Virus record (IMG/VR): IMGVR_UViG_3300043395_000246
Span: 1 to 23,349 of that record
DNA from: a virus
Reading direction: 5' to 3' (one strand)
Length of the DNA stretch: 23,349 bases
Position 1 is the first letter of the stretch; every line of letters begins with the position of its first letter. The notes beneath the pieces are model-generated. The model saw nothing but the letters and a program-made list of their open reading frames with translations. It ran no database searches and was not told where the DNA came from. A program made the position numbers and the translations under genes. Below, piece by piece: positions 10,434 to 22,911 of this stretch.

Positions 10434-11017
10434 GCGCCAAACCAGTTATAAGTTTTATACGGCATTAATAACGCTTTAACGCCTAAAGGTGATTCAATAG
10501 CCTGTAAATCGCTGAAATCCTCGCGTCGTTCGTAAAGCGTGTTTACCATCATTTTAACCGCCAATTTAATGTCCTCAGGAACGGTTGTAAATCCAGCCGT
10601 ATAAACCAATTTAAATTTATAGGACTGAGCGCCGCCAAGAATAAACAACTTAGGAAACAAGCCAGCATTAACACGATACTGCAAAGGCGTTTCAACATTG
10701 TTTTCGTCTATTGTCACGCATTTGCTAATATTTGCCTCGTTTGTTAGCGGTCCGTATGGCATTTGGAACTGATAAGGGAACGTAAACGAGTCAATCGTTA
10801 CGGTCTTTAAAACAATGCTTTTGCCCATGTATGACTCGCAATGAACGCGAGCCATTTTAATAAGGCTAGTAATTAGCGCATCCTCAGAAAATCCGTCGAT
10901 TCTTGCGTATTCTTTAGCCTCTGCCAAAGTAATTGGCTCGGTTACGGTTCCCGTGCTTAGTTGTACCGCGTAGCCTGTAAAACTGCCATTGCTTGGCCTA
11001 TATAGTAAATCACTCAT
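10430..11017 (-). CDS. Head-tail connector (gp6-like adaptor)
   Basis: This is a 195-residue protein. EPITLAEAKEYARIDGFSED near residues 27-46 is the typical helical start of gp6/gp15-like connector adaptors, which form a ring under the portal. A C-terminal helix VKMMVNTLYERREDFSD is also usual. The ATG at 11017 overlaps the end of the glycosyltransferase gene (ATGAGTGA); an upstream TTG at 11041 would give a longer overlap and is less likely. It begins a tightly coupled series of connector and tail genes, each overlapping or abutting the next down to 8763. Confidence 0.8.
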   Translation of the reverse strand: MSDLLYRPSNGSFTGYAVQLSTGTVTEPITLAEAKEYARIDGFSEDALITSLIKMARVHCESYMGKSIVLKTVTIDSFTFPYQFQMPYGPLTNEANISKCVTIDENNVETPLQYRVNAGLFPKLFILGGAQSYKFKLVYTAGFTTVPEDIKLAVKMMVNTLYERREDFSDLQAIESPLGVKALLMPYKTYNWFGA

Positions 11018-11996
11018 TGTATTGTTTCTTTGCTTTGTCAACGATAAAATTAAAGAATCTTTCTAGTTCTTGGTCTTGGTATTTAAGGCGTTCCTCTGCA
11101 AGGTTGCGCATTATGTTTTGGTGGAAATCGTAAAGGATTTCGTCACTCATCAACTCTTCAATTTTTGCAGCCATTCCGTCCAAGTCGTTGCGGTCAAAGT
11201 AAAGGCCAGCGGCGCCAAGGCATTCCTTTAATCCATCTGTTGGCGTGCAAATTACTGGCAGTCGATTAATAGCCGCCTCTAAACCTACACGGCCATAGGA
11301 CTCATAAAACGATGGTACAAGCACAATGTTGGTTTTGCCATAAATCAAATGCACGTCAGGCGTTTGCGCAACGTACTTAAGATTTTTTAGCGTGTCGTCA
11401 ATAATTTGCTCTCCATAACTACCAAGCACGCCAAGAAATTTACGCTTTGGCAAGCGCTTTGCAAGTTCGATTAATATTTGGCCGCCCTTGTTTTCGTTGC
11501 AATTAATTAGGGTAATATATTGCCCATGCTTGCGGTTATATTTAACGTCCTCGGGAAAAATTGGAGGCTTGCAAACAATCGACGCATTTGGGTAAGGTCC
11601 GTTTTGTACATTCTTTTCGTTGGCCTTGTTGTTATAAACAACGTGAATGTTTTGCGCTTTAAATCTGACGTTTCTATAATCGGAATCGTTGTGACTTAAA
11701 AAAATCAATTGCTTTTTAAATTGTTTTGCCCAATTAATCGCAACGCCTGTATTGTCCAAATGGGTAAATATTACGCTTGCATTTTGTAAGGCTAGAAAAA
11801 AGTCGTTTGAATAATAGCCAGTAATAAATTTTATAAAACTAAACTTTTCGCCGTCGGGATAAATTTGGCTTTCGGGTAAAATGACCTCAATATTGCATCC
11901 TTTTTGGTGGAAATATTTGGCGTAATGCTGAACGGTCCACTCGGCGCCCGAGTTATGCGTTCCAGCCCAAGCGTGTACAAAAAAAACGATATTCAT
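11010..11996 (-). CDS. GT4-type glycosyltransferase in the structural module
   Basis: This is a 328-residue GT-B enzyme. The N-terminus MNIVFFVHAWAGTHNSGAEW gives the first strand and glycine-rich loop of an acceptor domain. The C-terminal nucleotide-sugar domain shows the EX7E motif in FYESYGRVGLEAA (E232, E240), followed by PVICTPTDGLKECLG. GT4 enzymes transfer sugar from a nucleotide-sugar donor; donor and acceptor cannot be read here. It sits just after the capsid terminator and overlaps the connector gene by 8 bp, so it is probably made with virion proteins. That suggests glycosylation of a virion protein or alteration of host surface glycans during infection; both are inference. At 328 residues it is slightly short for the family but looks complete. 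Confidence 0.85.
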   Translation of the reverse strand: MNIVFFVHAWAGTHNSGAEWTVQHYAKYFHQKGCNIEVILPESQIYPDGEKFSFIKFITGYYSNDFFLALQNASVIFTHLDNTGVAINWAKQFKKQLIFLSHNDSDYRNVRFKAQNIHVVYNNKANEKNVQNGPYPNASIVCKPPIFPEDVKYNRKHGQYITLINCNENKGGQILIELAKRLPKRKFLGVLGSYGEQIIDDTLKNLKYVAQTPDVHLIYGKTNIVLVPSFYESYGRVGLEAAINRLPVICTPTDGLKECLGAAGLYFDRNDLDGMAAKIEELMSDEILYDFHQNIMRNLAEERLKYQDQELERFFNFIVDKAKKQYNE

Positions 11997-14063: not shown

Positions 14064-14077
14064 TAAATTACTGGTTT
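14046..14077 (-). terminator. Terminator overlapping the stop codon of the GT25-like gene
   Basis: The minus-strand hairpin AAACCAGTA / TATTGGTTT (14057-14077, one G-U pair, very small loop) is followed by GC and nine T (14054-14046). The TAA stop of the GT25-like gene (14070-14068) lies inside the hairpin. Confidence 0.7.
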
Positions 14078-14646
14078 ACAAAAAAGCCAACCCTTTGCTC
14101 AGATTCATAAAATAAACTTGTATAATCTTTAAATCCTCCCTCAATGTCGGAATCGCTTGGGCGCTGGTAACTTAGAAAAGGGTAAACAACATAACTGTTG
14201 CCTTTTGGATGGACTATTGTCCTATAATATTCGTCAATTGGCACGTCCAAATCTAATTCTGCCATTTCTTTTGCAAAGCGATGCGAATAAATTATTGCGT
14301 GCGTGGTCCAAGCGCCGTAGGTCCTAACCAATCGCTTGTTTATTCTGTCAATTCTTGGGTCTTTTATATTGGCCCCAAGCATCAACATATCCCAGCCAGC
14401 GGGCAAGTCATTGATTGCGTCTTGTAAATTTGTGGCCCAACCTCTAAACGTTGCGTCGTCCTCAAATATCAAAACGTCGCCCTCGCATTCTTGAAATATT
14501 TTTTTAAAGGTTTGTGCTAATCCAAGCCAGCCCCATTCGTGCTGGATTGCGCTTACTCGTTCCAAATTAAAATGAGGCGCCAATTCATTCATTGACGACC
14601 TCCATTTGTCTTTGCGGTGATCTAAGTTAATAACGTGTGCAATCAT
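14068..14646 (-). CDS. GT25-like glycosyltransferase in the head module
   Basis: This is a 192-residue protein with the GT25 (LPS biosynthesis type) pattern. It begins MIAHVINLDHRKDKW (strand, then the Asn-Leu and basic motif), has GDVLIFEDDATF with the metal/nucleotide-binding acidic motif E62-D63-D64, then RTYGAWTTHAIIYSHRFAKE (about residues 108-127) and VPIDEYY. The family transfers hexoses to lipooligosaccharide or to protein hydroxylysine-type acceptors; the substrate here is unknown. Its ATG overlaps the MuF-protein stop (ATGA), so it is co-translated with head genes, and its stop codon is inside a terminator hairpin. The placement between head morphogenesis and protease genes is unusual and suggests cargo acquired at the end of the portal operon. 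Confidence 0.8.
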   Translation of the reverse strand: MIAHVINLDHRKDKWRSSMNELAPHFNLERVSAIQHEWGWLGLAQTFKKIFQECEGDVLIFEDDATFRGWATNLQDAINDLPAGWDMLMLGANIKDPRIDRINKRLVRTYGAWTTHAIIYSHRFAKEMAELDLDVPIDEYYRTIVHPKGNSYVVYPFLSYQRPSDSDIEGGFKDYTSLFYESEQRVGFFVNQ

Positions 14647-19997: not shown

Positions 19998-20318
19998 TTA
20001 AAATGGTAAGGCATCATTTTCAACTATTCGCTTTTCTGTAAAGTTTACTTTTACAGATTTTAACTTTTCCAAAAGTTCCTGTTGTGTCGGTTGGTTTGCA
20101 ACTTGCAATCCATCTTTTTGGTATACCTCCAAATAATGTGTTGGCTTGCCCTCGATAATTTCTTTTTTTTCCTTAATGTCAAGGTTGACCCATTCAGCGT
20201 CGTTGTCGTTAAGGTATTTTAAAAGGTTTTCTAAGTCTTTTCTTGACTGACTTACTTTCCACATTTCACCAAACTTGGTTTGGATTTTCTTTGCGTTACC
20301 GCCGTAAATTTTGCTCAT
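19998..20318 (-). CDS. Small replication-region protein with SSB-like C-terminal tail
   Basis: This is a 106-residue protein I cannot place in a named family. It starts MSKIYGGNAKKIQTKFGEMW, which looks like a short strand-rich region, has helical and charged stretches in the middle, and ends ENDALPF. An acidic tip with final Pro-Phe is the hallmark by which single-stranded DNA-binding proteins recruit repair and replication partners. The position between a DNA methyltransferase and a RusA nuclease fits a role in ssDNA handling. Overlap with the methyltransferase stop is 4 bp. The ssDNA-binding call is inference from tail and context. Confidence 0.6.
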   Translation of the reverse strand: MSKIYGGNAKKIQTKFGEMWKVSQSRKDLENLLKYLNDNDAEWVNLDIKEKKEIIEGKPTHYLEVYQKDGLQVANQPTQQELLEKLKSVKVNFTEKRIVENDALPF

Positions 20319-21274
20319 AATGTTAACTGGTTGTTTAATTGATTGTATTGATCTATTGCTTTAAATATTTGGTAAACTACTTGCGGAACTACTGCGTTTC
20401 CTCCTGCTTTGATTGATTCGTTTCTCCATTTAGAAAAGGTAATAGAGTCCAATCTGTCGGAAATCCCATCATCTCCATCACAAATTGGGGCGACAGTTGG
20501 GAAGTTGTCCCATTTGGATTTAAATCCATCGCTAATTGTTTTAAAGGATAATGCAGATTTACACCTTTTTCCGCTTGCATTTTTTTTCTCTCCTGATATT
20601 TGTCTACTTTTTGTGCTGAATTCCAATCGAAAGCATTCGGAGTTGGAAACATTCCCGAATAAAGGATTTGACTGAGTAGGCAATTGTATTTGTTGTTTGG
20701 GTGAGGTGATTGATTCAATCCTTTTTCTGTCCTCTTCCTTTGTCTCGTTTGATATTCCTCTGGAGTTTCTGCTATCTGAACAAGACTTGGAGTAAGCAAT
20801 AAACCAAATTCTGTCTCTTTTGTGAGGTGCGTTGACGCTTGCAGCTGGAAGAATAAACGATTGTACTTCGTAGCCTTCAGTTTCCAAATTAGTTTGCACC
20901 TCTTCGAAGACCAACCCTCTGTTCCAATTAATAATGCCGTGAACGTTTTCGCCCACAACCCAGGTCGGCTGAATTTCTCGAATTGCTCTAAGCATCTCGG
21001 GCCATAAATGGCGCTCGTCTTCTTTTCCGAGTCGCTTCCCAGCCGATGAGTATGGCTGGCAAGGGAAGCCGCCTGTAAGGATGTCAATTGTTCCTCTGTG
21101 AATAGAGAAATCTGTCTTGGTGATATCATTATAAGTAATCGCTTTTGGCCAGTAATATTTTAAAACTTTTTGTCCGAACTCATTCCATTCGCAATGGAAA
21201 ACGTTTTCCCAACCCATCCATTCTGAGGCTAAATCAAAGCCTCCAATTCCGCTAAATAATGAGCCGTGCCTCAT
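20315..21274 (-). CDS. DNA (cytosine-5) methyltransferase
   Basis: This is a 319-residue C5 methyltransferase. Motif I is FSGIGGFDLA (about residues 7-16), motif IV GGFPCQPYSSAGKR with catalytic C72, motif VI GENVHG (E109), motif VIII HKRDRIWF (about 151-158), and motif X GGNAVVPQVVYQIF (about 291-304). The region between motifs VIII and X is short and low in similarity to known target-recognition domains, and its reading is complicated by a second open frame in the same DNA. No restriction enzyme gene is visible, so the enzyme probably protects phage DNA from host restriction or marks it. It is coupled by 4-bp overlaps to both neighbours. Confidence 0.93.
   Translation of the reverse strand: MRHGSLFSGIGGFDLASEWMGWENVFHCEWNEFGQKVLKYYWPKAITYNDITKTDFSIHRGTIDILTGGFPCQPYSSAGKRLGKEDERHLWPEMLRAIREIQPTWVVGENVHGIINWNRGLVFEEVQTNLETEGYEVQSFILPAASVNAPHKRDRIWFIAYSKSCSDSRNSRGISNETKEEDRKRIESITSPKQQIQLPTQSNPLFGNVSNSECFRLEFSTKSRQISGEKKNASGKRCKSALSFKTISDGFKSKWDNFPTVAPICDGDDGISDRLDSITFSKWRNESIKAGGNAVVPQVVYQIFKAIDQYNQLNNQLTL
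20389..21129 (-). CDS. Possible second protein nested out of frame in the methyltransferase gene
   Basis: A 246-codon frame, shifted +1 relative to the methyltransferase and on the same strand, opens with an ATG at 21129 (MISPRQISLFTEEQLTSLQA) and lies wholly inside the gene. Its first part overlaps conserved methyltransferase motifs and so could be only a shadow. The last third is different: GMFPTPNAFDWNSAQ near residues 159-173 and LSPQFVMEMMGFPTDWTLLP near 212-231 resemble a motif set that I recall from phage proteins associated with cytosine methyltransferases. In that stretch the methyltransferase frame (residues about 205-250) is poorly conserved in character. It may be a true overlapping gene, the remnant of a fused domain, or an artefact. 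Confidence 0.35.
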   Translation of the reverse strand: MISPRQISLFTEEQLTSLQAASLASHTHRLGSDSEKKTSAIYGPRCLEQFEKFSRPGLWAKTFTALLIGTEGWSSKRCKLIWKLKATKYNRLFFQLQASTHLTKETEFGLLLTPSLVQIAETPEEYQTRQRKRTEKGLNQSPHPNNKYNCLLSQILYSGMFPTPNAFDWNSAQKVDKYQERKKMQAEKGVNLHYPLKQLAMDLNPNGTTSQLSPQFVMEMMGFPTDWTLLPFLNGETNQSKQEETQ

Positions 21275-21900
21275 ATTAACTGATCCAAGTTTTTTCCGTC
21301 CTTAATCGCCTGTAAAATAAACAATTTCCAAATCTTATTCTTGGTTTTAGCCCCAACTGTTGATTCTTCAACGTATCGCGTTGTTAACCGCAATTCGCGG
21401 CGCACGTCGCTTTCTAATTCTTCAACGTTAAAGTCCCAAGGTTTTAAAATTCCTTTTTCTTGAAATCTGTTAAACCAATAAACTCCCCATTCAGCAATGT
21501 GTCTGCACGTTCCCGTTTCTTTCGCGTGCTGGTAATTATCGCGAAAGGTTTGGCGTCCAATTTCTTTCCAATGCTCAATCTCTTCGTTTGTGTATTCGCG
21601 CTCCTTGTTGTTTAGCGCTTGCACCTCCTGAACAATTTGGCTTTGGTGGTGCGCATAGTATTGATTTATCCAAACGCTCACCGTCTTTTCGTTAACGTGG
21701 TAAAAATCGCCGTATTGGCCCCTCATTCCAGCGTGTAAAATATAGTCAACTCGCTGGTCAGTCATCCAGCCATAGGAGCCAAACAACTTGCTAAGGCAAG
21801 CCAGCAATTCGTTGGCTTCTTCTTTTTTGTATTCTTTAAATTGCTTTAGACCGCAAACAAATTCCATTTTGCGTAGATGCGTTAAAATAATCTCATTCAT
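21271..21900 (-). CDS. Unknown replication-region protein (209 residues)
   Basis: I do not recognise a firm family. The protein is largely helical and Glu/Lys-rich, with GMRGQYGDFYHVNEKTVSVW near residues 58-77 followed by INQYYAHHQSQI. That resembles proteins placed after initiator genes in Bacteroidota phages and mobile elements. A second helical segment (EIGRQTFRDNYQHAKETGTC) and a basic C-terminal helix NKIWKLFILQAIKDG follow. There is no Walker motif, so it is not a DnaC-type ATPase. It overlaps the DnaD-like gene by 8 bp and the methyltransferase by 4 bp, indicating co-translation; a helper role in replication initiation is plausible only from position. Confidence 0.7.
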   Translation of the reverse strand: MNEIILTHLRKMEFVCGLKQFKEYKKEEANELLACLSKLFGSYGWMTDQRVDYILHAGMRGQYGDFYHVNEKTVSVWINQYYAHHQSQIVQEVQALNNKEREYTNEEIEHWKEIGRQTFRDNYQHAKETGTCRHIAEWGVYWFNRFQEKGILKPWDFNVEELESDVRRELRLTTRYVEESTVGAKTKNKIWKLFILQAIKDGKNLDQLI

Positions 21901-22639
21901 TTTTTAGGTGTTTTTCTCGTTGCAAATCTTCATAAATTTCGTCGAAAACGTTTCGACTTTTTGACTTTTCAATTGGCTTGTTGTATGTGCTTTTTGTTTT
22001 GCTTTGAAAGGTGATTGAATTTTTAACAAAATAATTAAAGTCCCTTTTTAAGTCTTGGATTGTTTTAAATTCTTTTCCCTCATTTACTGCCAAATATTCA
22101 ACCAAATATTTTTCCAACTGGAAGTCATTTATTTCGTGTATTGTTTTTAACTGACTTGCAAAAGGAATTTGCATTGGTAATTCTTTAAAAAACTCGTCGT
22201 CTATAATATATCTATTTAAAATTATTTCATTCTTTATTTCTTTTACTTCTTTAGTTGGTTTCACTTGCGTTTCACTTGCGTTCCAGTTGCGTTTCACTTG
22301 CGTTTCACTATCGTTTCGCTCACCTTGGTAAGTGTCATATTTACAGATAGTTATCCGTGTCGTTACCGTTTCGCTTTTTAACACAATCATTGAATCTTTT
22401 TCGAGCATTTTTAAAAACCTCAAAACCTTTGATTTGTTAATTTTCCAGCGATTTGCCCAAGTTTCATAAGAGTAAACAACCTCACCTCGGCTAACCTCTA
22501 TAACCTGGCCCTTTATTAAAACCTTTTTAGGTTCAATGTTGGCTTGCATTAATATGTCTAGCCACCACTTTAAGAATTCAGGTTTTTGCCAAATCCAATG
22601 CTCATTCAATTGCCTATGTAACTTGATCCAGCCGCTCAT
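21893..22639 (-). CDS. DnaD-like replication initiator with internal origin repeats
   Basis: This is a 248-residue protein. Residues 1-105 form a winged-helix domain with the phage replication pattern: GWIKLHRQLNEHWIWQKPEF, then VIEVSRGEVVYSYETWANRW, KINKSKVLRFLKMLEKDSMI and TTRITICKYDTYQ. A linker follows with an 11-residue duplication (SETQVK at 111-116 and 122-127). The C-terminal part (FQLEKYLVEYLAVNEGKEFK onward) is helical and charged, consistent with a DnaD-like or helicase-loader-binding region. The linker DNA consists of 11-bp tandem repeats, suggesting that the origin is inside the gene. Expression starts behind a structured leader that ends in a terminator 12 bp before the ATG, so transcription of this gene and those below it may be attenuated. 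Confidence 0.82.
   Translation of the reverse strand: MSGWIKLHRQLNEHWIWQKPEFLKWWLDILMQANIEPKKVLIKGQVIEVSRGEVVYSYETWANRWKINKSKVLRFLKMLEKDSMIVLKSETVTTRITICKYDTYQGERNDSETQVKRNWNASETQVKPTKEVKEIKNEIILNRYIIDDEFFKELPMQIPFASQLKTIHEINDFQLEKYLVEYLAVNEGKEFKTIQDLKRDFNYFVKNSITFQSKTKSTYNKPIEKSKSRNVFDEIYEDLQREKHLKNE
22190..22255. other. AT-rich tract next to the iteron-like repeats (possible unwinding element)
   Basis: The stretch beside the 11-bp repeats is dominated by A and T (for example TATAATATATCTATTTAAAA, 22202-22221) and codes for the linker of the initiator. In phage origins inside initiator genes an AT-rich unwinding element commonly adjoins the repeats. The role is inferred from arrangement. 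Confidence 0.45.
22259..22324. repeat. Iteron-like 11-bp tandem repeats, putative replication origin
   Basis: On the plus strand the unit TTTCACTTGCG occurs exactly at 22259-22269, 22270-22280 and 22292-22302. Variants with two changes are at 22281-22291 and 22303-22313, and a degenerate copy is at 22314-22324. The 11-bp period is about one helical turn and not a multiple of three, so the peptide repeats only every 33 bp. It lies inside the initiator gene, as the origin does in lambda O and several Gram-positive phages. Confidence 0.65.
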
Positions 22640-22650
22640 TTAAATAAAAT

Positions 22651-22682
22651 AAAAAAGCCCAACAGGTGAGAGACTGTCGGGC
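22651..22682 (-). terminator. Terminator / attenuator in the leader of the initiator gene
   Basis: On the minus strand a 9-bp stem GCCCGACAG / CTGTTGGGC (22682-22657, one G-U pair, 8-nt loop) is followed by six T, an A and more T. It lies between the promoter and the ATG at 22639, so readthrough is needed to express the gene from this promoter. Confidence 0.85.
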
Positions 22683-22736
22683 TAGGTTTAGTTAACCTAT
22701 GGAATTATTCTTGCCTCTCACCTCAGGAATAATTCG
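22651..22736 (-). ncRNA. Structured leader RNA (three hairpins, complementary loops) upstream of the initiator gene
   Basis: Between a promoter and the initiator ATG lies a compact segment predicted to start at about 22736. Hairpin 1 (22735-22702) has a 9-bp stem GAATTATTC / GAATAATTC with a 16-nt loop. Hairpin 2 (22699-22683) has a 6-bp stem TAGGTT / AACCTA with a 5-nt loop. Hairpin 3 (22682-22657) is a 9-bp terminator stem with loop TCTCTCAC and a following T tract. The loop of hairpin 1 contains AGGTGAGAG (22723-22715), exactly complementary to CTCTCACCT of hairpin 3 (22672-22664), seven of these bases being in its loop. It could be a small RNA, an attenuator, or both. I do not recognise a known family. 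Confidence 0.65.
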
Positions 22737-22741
22737 TTTTT

Positions 22742-22769
22742 CAAATATAACAATTTTTAAATTATCCAA
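22742..22769 (-). promoter_or_regulatory. Bacteroidota-type promoter for the leader RNA
   Basis: On the minus strand TTG (22769-22767), a 17-nt spacer, then TATATTTG (22749-22742), an exact TAnnTTTG. Spacing and -7 octamer are identical to the promoter of the XRE unit. Transcription would start a few bases before hairpin 1. The TTG lies within the last codons of the small HTH gene. Confidence 0.75.
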
Positions 22770-22911
22770 CTAAATACCGACGCTTTAGTTCAGTATAAAT
22801 TGTGCCATAACATCGGTCAAGTTCGATTGCAATTACTTTAATTGGCTTTCGGTCTTGCCAGCATTCAAATATTTTTGCCTTTTCTTCGTCACTTATTTTT
22901 CGCCTCTTCAT
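22762..22911 (-). CDS. Small 49-residue HTH protein
   Basis: The frame runs from ATG 22911 to TAA 22764-22762. It reads MKRRKISDEEKAKIFECWQD, then RKPIKVIAIELDRCYGTIYT and ends ELKRRYLVG. The sequence outlines three short helices with a resolvase- or homeodomain-like helix-turn-helix: IKVIAIELD, a turn, and GTIYTELKRR as the recognition helix. It overlaps the upstream gene by 23 bp and reads on the same strand. It may be a small early regulator or DNA-binding accessory. The call rests on pattern; the length leaves little more to judge. Confidence 0.7.
   Translation of the reverse strand: MKRRKISDEEKAKIFECWQDRKPIKVIAIELDRCYGTIYTELKRRYLVG

Follow-up and report, generated by a model that had tools for sequence, protein, structure and literature searches.

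The window, by which we mean the whole stretch of 23,349 nucleotides analysed here (IMG/VR record IMGVR_UViG_3300043395_000246), can be assigned to a tailed phage by its genes for terminase, portal and capsid, which share the same strand. Judged from the promoter type, its host would be a member of the Bacteroidota. Near the end of the window, a leader segment lies between a small helix-turn-helix (HTH) gene and the gene of a replication initiator. Listed in the direction of transcription, the features of this segment are:

22762-22911, minus strand: 49-aa helix-turn-helix protein, HTH_38 (Pfam, E 1.5e-8), directly upstream of the leader
22767-22769, minus strand: promoter -33 element TTG (sequence)
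22742-22749, minus strand: promoter -7 element TATATTTG of the Bacteroidota type TAnnTTTG, with a 17-nt spacer from the TTG (sequence)
22702-22735, minus strand: hairpin 1, stem GAATTATTC-C-TG / CA-A-GAATAATTC, loop AGGTGAGAGG (fold and covariation)
22715-22721, minus strand: kissing sequence X = GTGAGAG in the hairpin 1 loop (perfect complement of X')
22683-22699, minus strand: hairpin 2, TAGGTT-AACTA-AACCTA (fold and covariation)
22656-22683, minus strand: intrinsic terminator hairpin AGCCCGACAG-TCTCTCAC-CTGTTGGGCT (terminator scan and covariation)
22666-22672, minus strand: kissing sequence X' = CTCTCAC in the terminator loop (sequence; complement of X)
22651-22656, minus strand: T tract (T6), predicted 3' end of the short RNA (sequence)
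21893-22639, minus strand: DnaD-like helicase loader / replication initiator, 248 aa (PHROG 2514, E 2.4e-33)

The stop codon of the HTH_38 gene (22764-22762) overlaps the -33 region of the promoter, and the initiator ATG at 22639 follows the end of the terminator after a gap of 11 nt. Shortly downstream of the initiator lies a gene for a C5 cytosine DNA methyltransferase (20315-21274, minus strand; PF00145, E 5.3e-47), which is overlapped by a second long open frame at 20389-21129. Inspection of the translations by eye also revealed glycosyltransferase-like frames at 11010-11996 and 14068-14646 (both minus strand) among the head and tail genes.

An earlier note on this DNA had described a promoter, three hairpins and a terminator with a T tract, and sequence and folding analysis placed each of them on the minus strand where that note had seen it. 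The expected transcription start also coincides with the beginning of hairpin 1, as proposed. In the window, the terminator scan recognized an intrinsic terminator with a hairpin of 10 pairs followed by T6. The 86-nt RNA folded into exactly three hairpins with -28.3 kcal/mol (z = -4.2), and none of 200 shuffled sequences folded as well as the native one. The loop of hairpin 1, previously given as 16 nt, does exist but is better described as 10 nt (8 nt in some alleles), because the pairs T22725-A22712 and G22724-C22713 extend the stem. Across the 23.3-kb record, the sequence GGTGAGAG was found at two places only, one on each strand, and both fall within the leader element.

Relatives were collected with a 17-nt loop 1 pattern, three initiator searches, a class II initiator search and terminator-only patterns, which yielded several hundred loci. 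Several matches of the 17-nt pattern turned out to be unrelated coding sequence and were discarded. The leader element was found to be conserved in about 100 distinct relatives, which are uncultured phages. Among the 26 records with a significant match to the RNA model, each contained one copy; weak model matches on the reverse strand are an effect of the near-palindromic layout and do not represent additional elements. Two contigs of 30-48 kb from the model search (L284, L314) carry the same alleles with a different first hairpin. A generic scan for a hairpin followed by a T run, with a complement of its loop upstream, returned 81 matches, almost all of which were this element and 79 of which had a promoter-like box.

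We then looked beyond these phages. In 84,980 bacterial and archaeal genomes, the terminator pattern matched nine chance terminators, none with an upstream partner. The RNA model gave no match in 395 Bacteroidota genomes, a scan run without a positive control genome. DNA similarity searches of a named phage collection detected no leader, and the relatives of the initiator in that collection are less than 60% identical. Finally, the earlier note knew of no described family with this layout, and indeed Rfam 15 contained no family that matched at the gathering threshold, and a permissive scan gave no family either, C4 (RF01695) included.

Covariation in relatives, the check suggested in that note, was analysed for the stems and for the loop-loop pairing, and clear covariation was found in both. 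The outcomes that would have spoken against the note's reading, stems lacking compensatory changes or relatives without complementary loops, were not observed. The stem of hairpin 1 was paired in 99.4% of cells and that of the terminator in 98.7%, both with compensatory changes. Hairpin 2 was paired in 82% of cells, with both sides changed at three pairs. Taken over the class Ia stems, 95.8% of cells were paired and both sides had changed in 112 cells (versus 31 in shuffles), and pairing dropped below 56% when the alignment was slid by one column; in class Ib, 93.3% were paired. An exact TAnnTTTG box was present within 20 nt 5' of hairpin 1 in 67 of 94 leaders, compared to 1.5% of background windows, and 44 of the 102 leaders examined had a TTG separated from the box by 17 nt.

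In all 106 unique leaders, the loop-loop helix was Watson-Crick paired at 7 of 7 positions, while its sequence varied among eight alleles that share the form GTNNNAG/CTNNNAC. Five of these alleles were frequent (GTAGGAG in 28 leaders, GTGAGAG in 21, GTGGTAG in 20, GTCGGAG in 17 and GTGGAAG in 13) and three were rarer (GTCGCAG in three, GTAGCAG and GTTGCAG in two each), the GTTGCAG leaders belonging to a second architecture (II, see below). When terminator loops were redealt among the leaders, on average 20 and at most 34 leaders kept a complete helix in 2,000 shuffles, versus the 106 observed. A single pair of leaders illustrates the process: over the 84 nt compared, L169 and L062 differ solely by a T to A change in loop 1 and a compensatory A to T change in the terminator loop. 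Within the kissing helix, positions 1, 2, 6 and 7 were invariant and the middle three varied, and neither G-U nor broken intermediates were seen. Of the nine complementary nucleotides noted earlier in the window, the seven that lie in both loops are conserved, but the outer two are lost in GTGGAAG- and GTCGGAG-type relatives; since other alleles do not keep them, the 9-nt complementarity of the window is best read as a conserved 7-nt core plus two nucleotides.

Some of these numbers depend on how the leaders were found. The set of 106 was recruited partly via the complementarity itself, so the terminator-only and initiator-anchored evidence is less biased. With the terminator-only pattern, a complementary 7-mer was detected within 75 nt upstream in 118 of 120 distinct phage contexts; of the two exceptions, one is a contig with just 7 nt ahead of the terminator and the other an unrelated sequence. 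Since this pattern fixes the outer loop letters CT..AC, the search itself accounts for part of their conservation, yet the same outer letters stand in class I loci that were anchored on the initiator and not chosen by the terminator pattern. Furthermore, the class Ia alignment (MAFFT, covariance model) shifts loop 1 by one column where the loop length differs. Because joint alignments of the class Ia types misplace loop 1 in this way, kissing pairs were counted from anchored 7-mers.

The alleles are nearly orthogonal. Cognate 7-mers pair with -8.7 to -10.7 kcal/mol, and nearly all non-cognate pairs are weaker than -7. The exception is GUUGCAG with the partner of GUCGCAG, a non-cognate and poorly separated combination at -8.4 kcal/mol. 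Different alleles also co-exist within single metagenomes: 3300044846 alone contains GTGAGAG (L022), GTCGGAG (L377), GTAGGAG (L275) and GTGGTAG (L319). That the leader is a structured RNA with loop-loop pairing is, on this sequence evidence, near certain. Because the loops remain a perfect match even though the sequence of that match differs between phages, the kissing-loop leader is unlikely to be a coincidence and is probably a genuine RNA switch of an undescribed kind.

The position of the leader is constant, too. Among distinct contexts, the end of the matched terminator lies 6-19 nt before an ATG, always directly before the start of a gene on the same strand. This invariable position fits both roles envisaged by the earlier note, an attenuator of the initiator or a stable small RNA with the initiator expressed by readthrough. 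On the whole, the interpretation given in that note is partly supported. The downstream gene nearly always encodes a replication protein (PHROG_2514 DnaD-like, Lin1244_N/DUF7833, DUF6291 or BT4734-like primase), with an HTH_36 protein and a DUF3223 protein among the others. In two phages, a PDDEXK-like gene (MANKF...) is placed between leader and initiator (L245 at about 2150, L353 at about 5990). HTH relatives ending in ..LVG* were found upstream of nearly all class I leaders, the class of the window. Identical or nearly identical HTH proteins, together with the same downstream gene family, are combined with four or five alleles; thus the leader behaves as an exchangeable cassette whose recognition is self-contained. 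Promoter, hairpins and terminator move together before several unrelated replication genes, which agrees with the proposal that the RNA is one unit.

Another shared element was noticed in the initiators themselves. Proteins with unrelated N-terminal domains (DnaD-like, Lin1244_N/DUF7833, DUF6291) end in a common C-terminal tail like NVFDEIYEDLQKQKHLKNE, encoded at 21893-21975 (minus strand) in the window and at the 3' ends of the genes in L110, L195, L117 and others. It was recognized from short matches to residues 222-248 or 203-229 in the initiator searches and may serve as a docking peptide for a helicase or loader partner that these proteins have in common.

In another phage branch, homologous initiators are preceded by architecture II (L077-L090, L389-L462). 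Here, a short hairpin stands at the transcript start and its loop pairs inside a terminator loop of 22-26 nt, with an unstructured AU-rich spacer between the loops. Loop sequences include GTTGCAG, AGGCAG, GTGCAG, GGCTCGAC, GGCTGGAC, GCTCTCACA, GAGTCTCA and CTTCCAAC, and the 5' stems, read by eye, co-change as AGGT/ACCT, GGGT/ACCC, CGGT/ACCG, GAGTT/AACTC and GGTTC/GAACC. A different small gene takes the place of the upstream HTH gene. In a subset of ten loci with three allele types (IIa), a third copy of the 5' loop lies directly 5' of the ATG and covaries with the other two sites; in L389, L392, L403 and L459, for example, it lies no more than about 15 nt ahead of the initiator ATG. This three-site covariation suggests that translation is controlled too in that branch. 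At class I start codons, there was no third copy of X or X', and within 2 kb the 7-mer of the own allele was not in excess. Having no third copy at the start codon, class I, to which the window belongs, lacks a second target of the P4 or C4 type.

What could such a leader do? Transcription that enters the initiator from this side must pass the terminator, so by position the leader would act as an attenuator, and an attenuator or leader-RNA role is likely. Our preferred reading, to which we assign a probability of roughly 0.55, is that this attenuator and small RNA sets initiator expression by loop-loop recognition that acts also between RNA copies. Most transcripts would stop at the terminator and give a compact RNA of about 85 nt, and the initiator would be expressed from those that read through. 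By pairing with the terminator loop, loop 1 would alter, up or down, how often RNA polymerase stops. Because its partner is the loop and not an arm of the terminator, pairing need not block the terminator stem; it might hinder or help closure of the hairpin at the polymerase exit. The short RNA from one phage genome could pair with the nascent leader of another genome of the same allele, which would provide dosage feedback on the initiator. We think that pairing acts between copies too because both partners reside in an exchangeable cassette that has diversified into well-separated alleles. Alleles of similar strength but different sequence, co-existing on interchangeable flanks, are what one would expect if each RNA had to recognize its own kind, which makes this interpretation attractive, and allele-specific recognition between phage copies is possible. 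In a bolder version, a variable 7-bp loop-loop code would be contained with both its halves in the RNA of about 85 nt, the short RNA would recognize leaders of its own allele only, and co-infecting phages would in this way count or exclude each other at the initiator; this version is put forward tentatively and has the odds against it. Lysogenic immunity of the P4 type is unsupported, since no relative was present in the bacterial genomes searched.

Kissing might instead be confined to a single transcript, in a purely cis-acting attenuator that tunes or senses something else (candidates being the upstream HTH protein, NusA-like factors or transcription speed), with allele diversity as neutral drift. 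In class I, the partners are indeed always in the same RNA, 40-45 nt apart, the leader sits directly before the gene, and the AU-rich unstructured spacer of architecture II would allow both loops to meet. Kissing within one RNA could likewise preserve complementarity, with drift and recombination generating the alleles. However, the four invariant positions, and the fact that neither G-U nor broken intermediates were seen, go beyond what one would expect from simple drift. Moreover, rough A-form estimates give about 80 Å end to end for hairpin 1, kissing helix and terminator, whereas the linker with hairpin 2 folded spans about 40 Å; with so short a linker left by folded hairpin 2, the fully folded class I complex looks strained in cis. 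We consider an attenuator acting in cis alone rather unlikely. Still less probable is a stable small RNA of the phage that stands alone and acts on other targets, closed and protected by the kissing interaction and next to the initiator by accident. Stable RNAs typically begin with a 5' hairpin and end in a strong terminator, as is predicted here, and a single copy per record would suit such a molecule. But a free-standing RNA does not need a place directly upstream of a same-strand gene, nearly always one for replication, in all of about 100 distinct contexts, and class I leaves no invariant free loop for a target because the loops themselves are the variable part.

Three further explanations carry little weight. 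In many plasmids, a separate antisense RNA transcribed from the other strand controls the initiator leader (pT181 type; PMC4878617), but an opposite-strand TAnnTTTG box within 200 nt accompanied only 11 of 105 leaders, at scattered positions, and there was thus no conserved facing promoter; we regard such control as very improbable here. The complementary 7-mers could also form an inverted repeat in the DNA that binds a protein, for instance the HTH protein whose gene adjoins nearly all class I leaders. We rejected this operator, the chances of which are slimmer again, as one and the same HTH protein can accompany four different alleles, both 7-mers fall exactly in the loops of covarying stems and the spacing between them varies between architectures. 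An ordinary promoter and terminator with complementarity by chance, each element being common by itself, is refuted by the covariation in every one of the 106 leaders and has next to no probability left.

Taken together, these leaders make up a well-defined and undescribed family of structured phage RNAs. Their loop-loop covariation is unusually clear, and they stand where a phage commits itself to replicating its DNA. Their alleles amount to a natural collection of kissing loops on terminators that are largely orthogonal to one another, which makes both the mechanism and RNA-based compatibility of phages directly testable, and they could serve as ready-made orthogonal transcription regulators in Bacteroidota.

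Among known regulators, the C4 antisense RNA of phages P1 and P7 is derived from a leader and pairs with the transcript it comes from, close to where the gene under its control begins. Class IIa could pair near the gene start in the same manner, but the leaders match no Rfam covariance model of C4 (RF01695) and class I is without a start-codon target. The CI RNA of satellite phage P4 (seqA/seqB/seqC immunity) represses replication genes by pairing with leader sites upstream and downstream of itself, which leads to premature termination (PMC4825925). Like it, the leader described here stands before a phage replication gene and contains self-complementary segments, in our case predicted from the sequence, and class IIa even shares the layout of an upstream target, a complement in the RNA and a second, downstream target. 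Class I, in contrast, is without the downstream copy. Furthermore, CI RNA is cut from a longer transcript, whereas the phage leader has its own promoter and intrinsic terminator, and the two share neither sequence nor Rfam similarity.

In Gifsy-1, a single promoter gives rise to the short, Rho-independently terminated IsrK RNA and to a longer readthrough mRNA, on which the short form acts in trans (PMC4825925). However, IsrK switches on translation of a small ORF that leads to AntQ, and it differs from the phage leader in structure and gene. Plasmids offer the closest parallel for specificity. In attenuators of the pT181 type, the replication initiator is controlled through an antisense RNA made separately, together with an antiterminator in which an upstream segment pairs with the terminator stem arm (PMC4878617), and in RNAI of IncB/IncK about three apical loop nucleotides set the incompatibility group (PMC10724649). 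The phage leader would likewise control an initiator via kissing loops and, as in pT181, a terminator, and the variable central triplet of its loops resembles the three specificity nucleotides of the plasmid RNAs (PMC4878617, PMC10724649). Yet both of its partners reside on one sense RNA instead of involving a separate antisense RNA, and its conserved pairing targets the terminator loop rather than, as in pT181, an arm of the terminator stem. The leader thus appears to resemble P4 CI, pT181 and IsrK in principle and, by the tests made, to be a member of none. If recognition between phages proves true, phages would have their own equivalent of plasmid incompatibility groups, built from one sense RNA with the terminator loop as its target.
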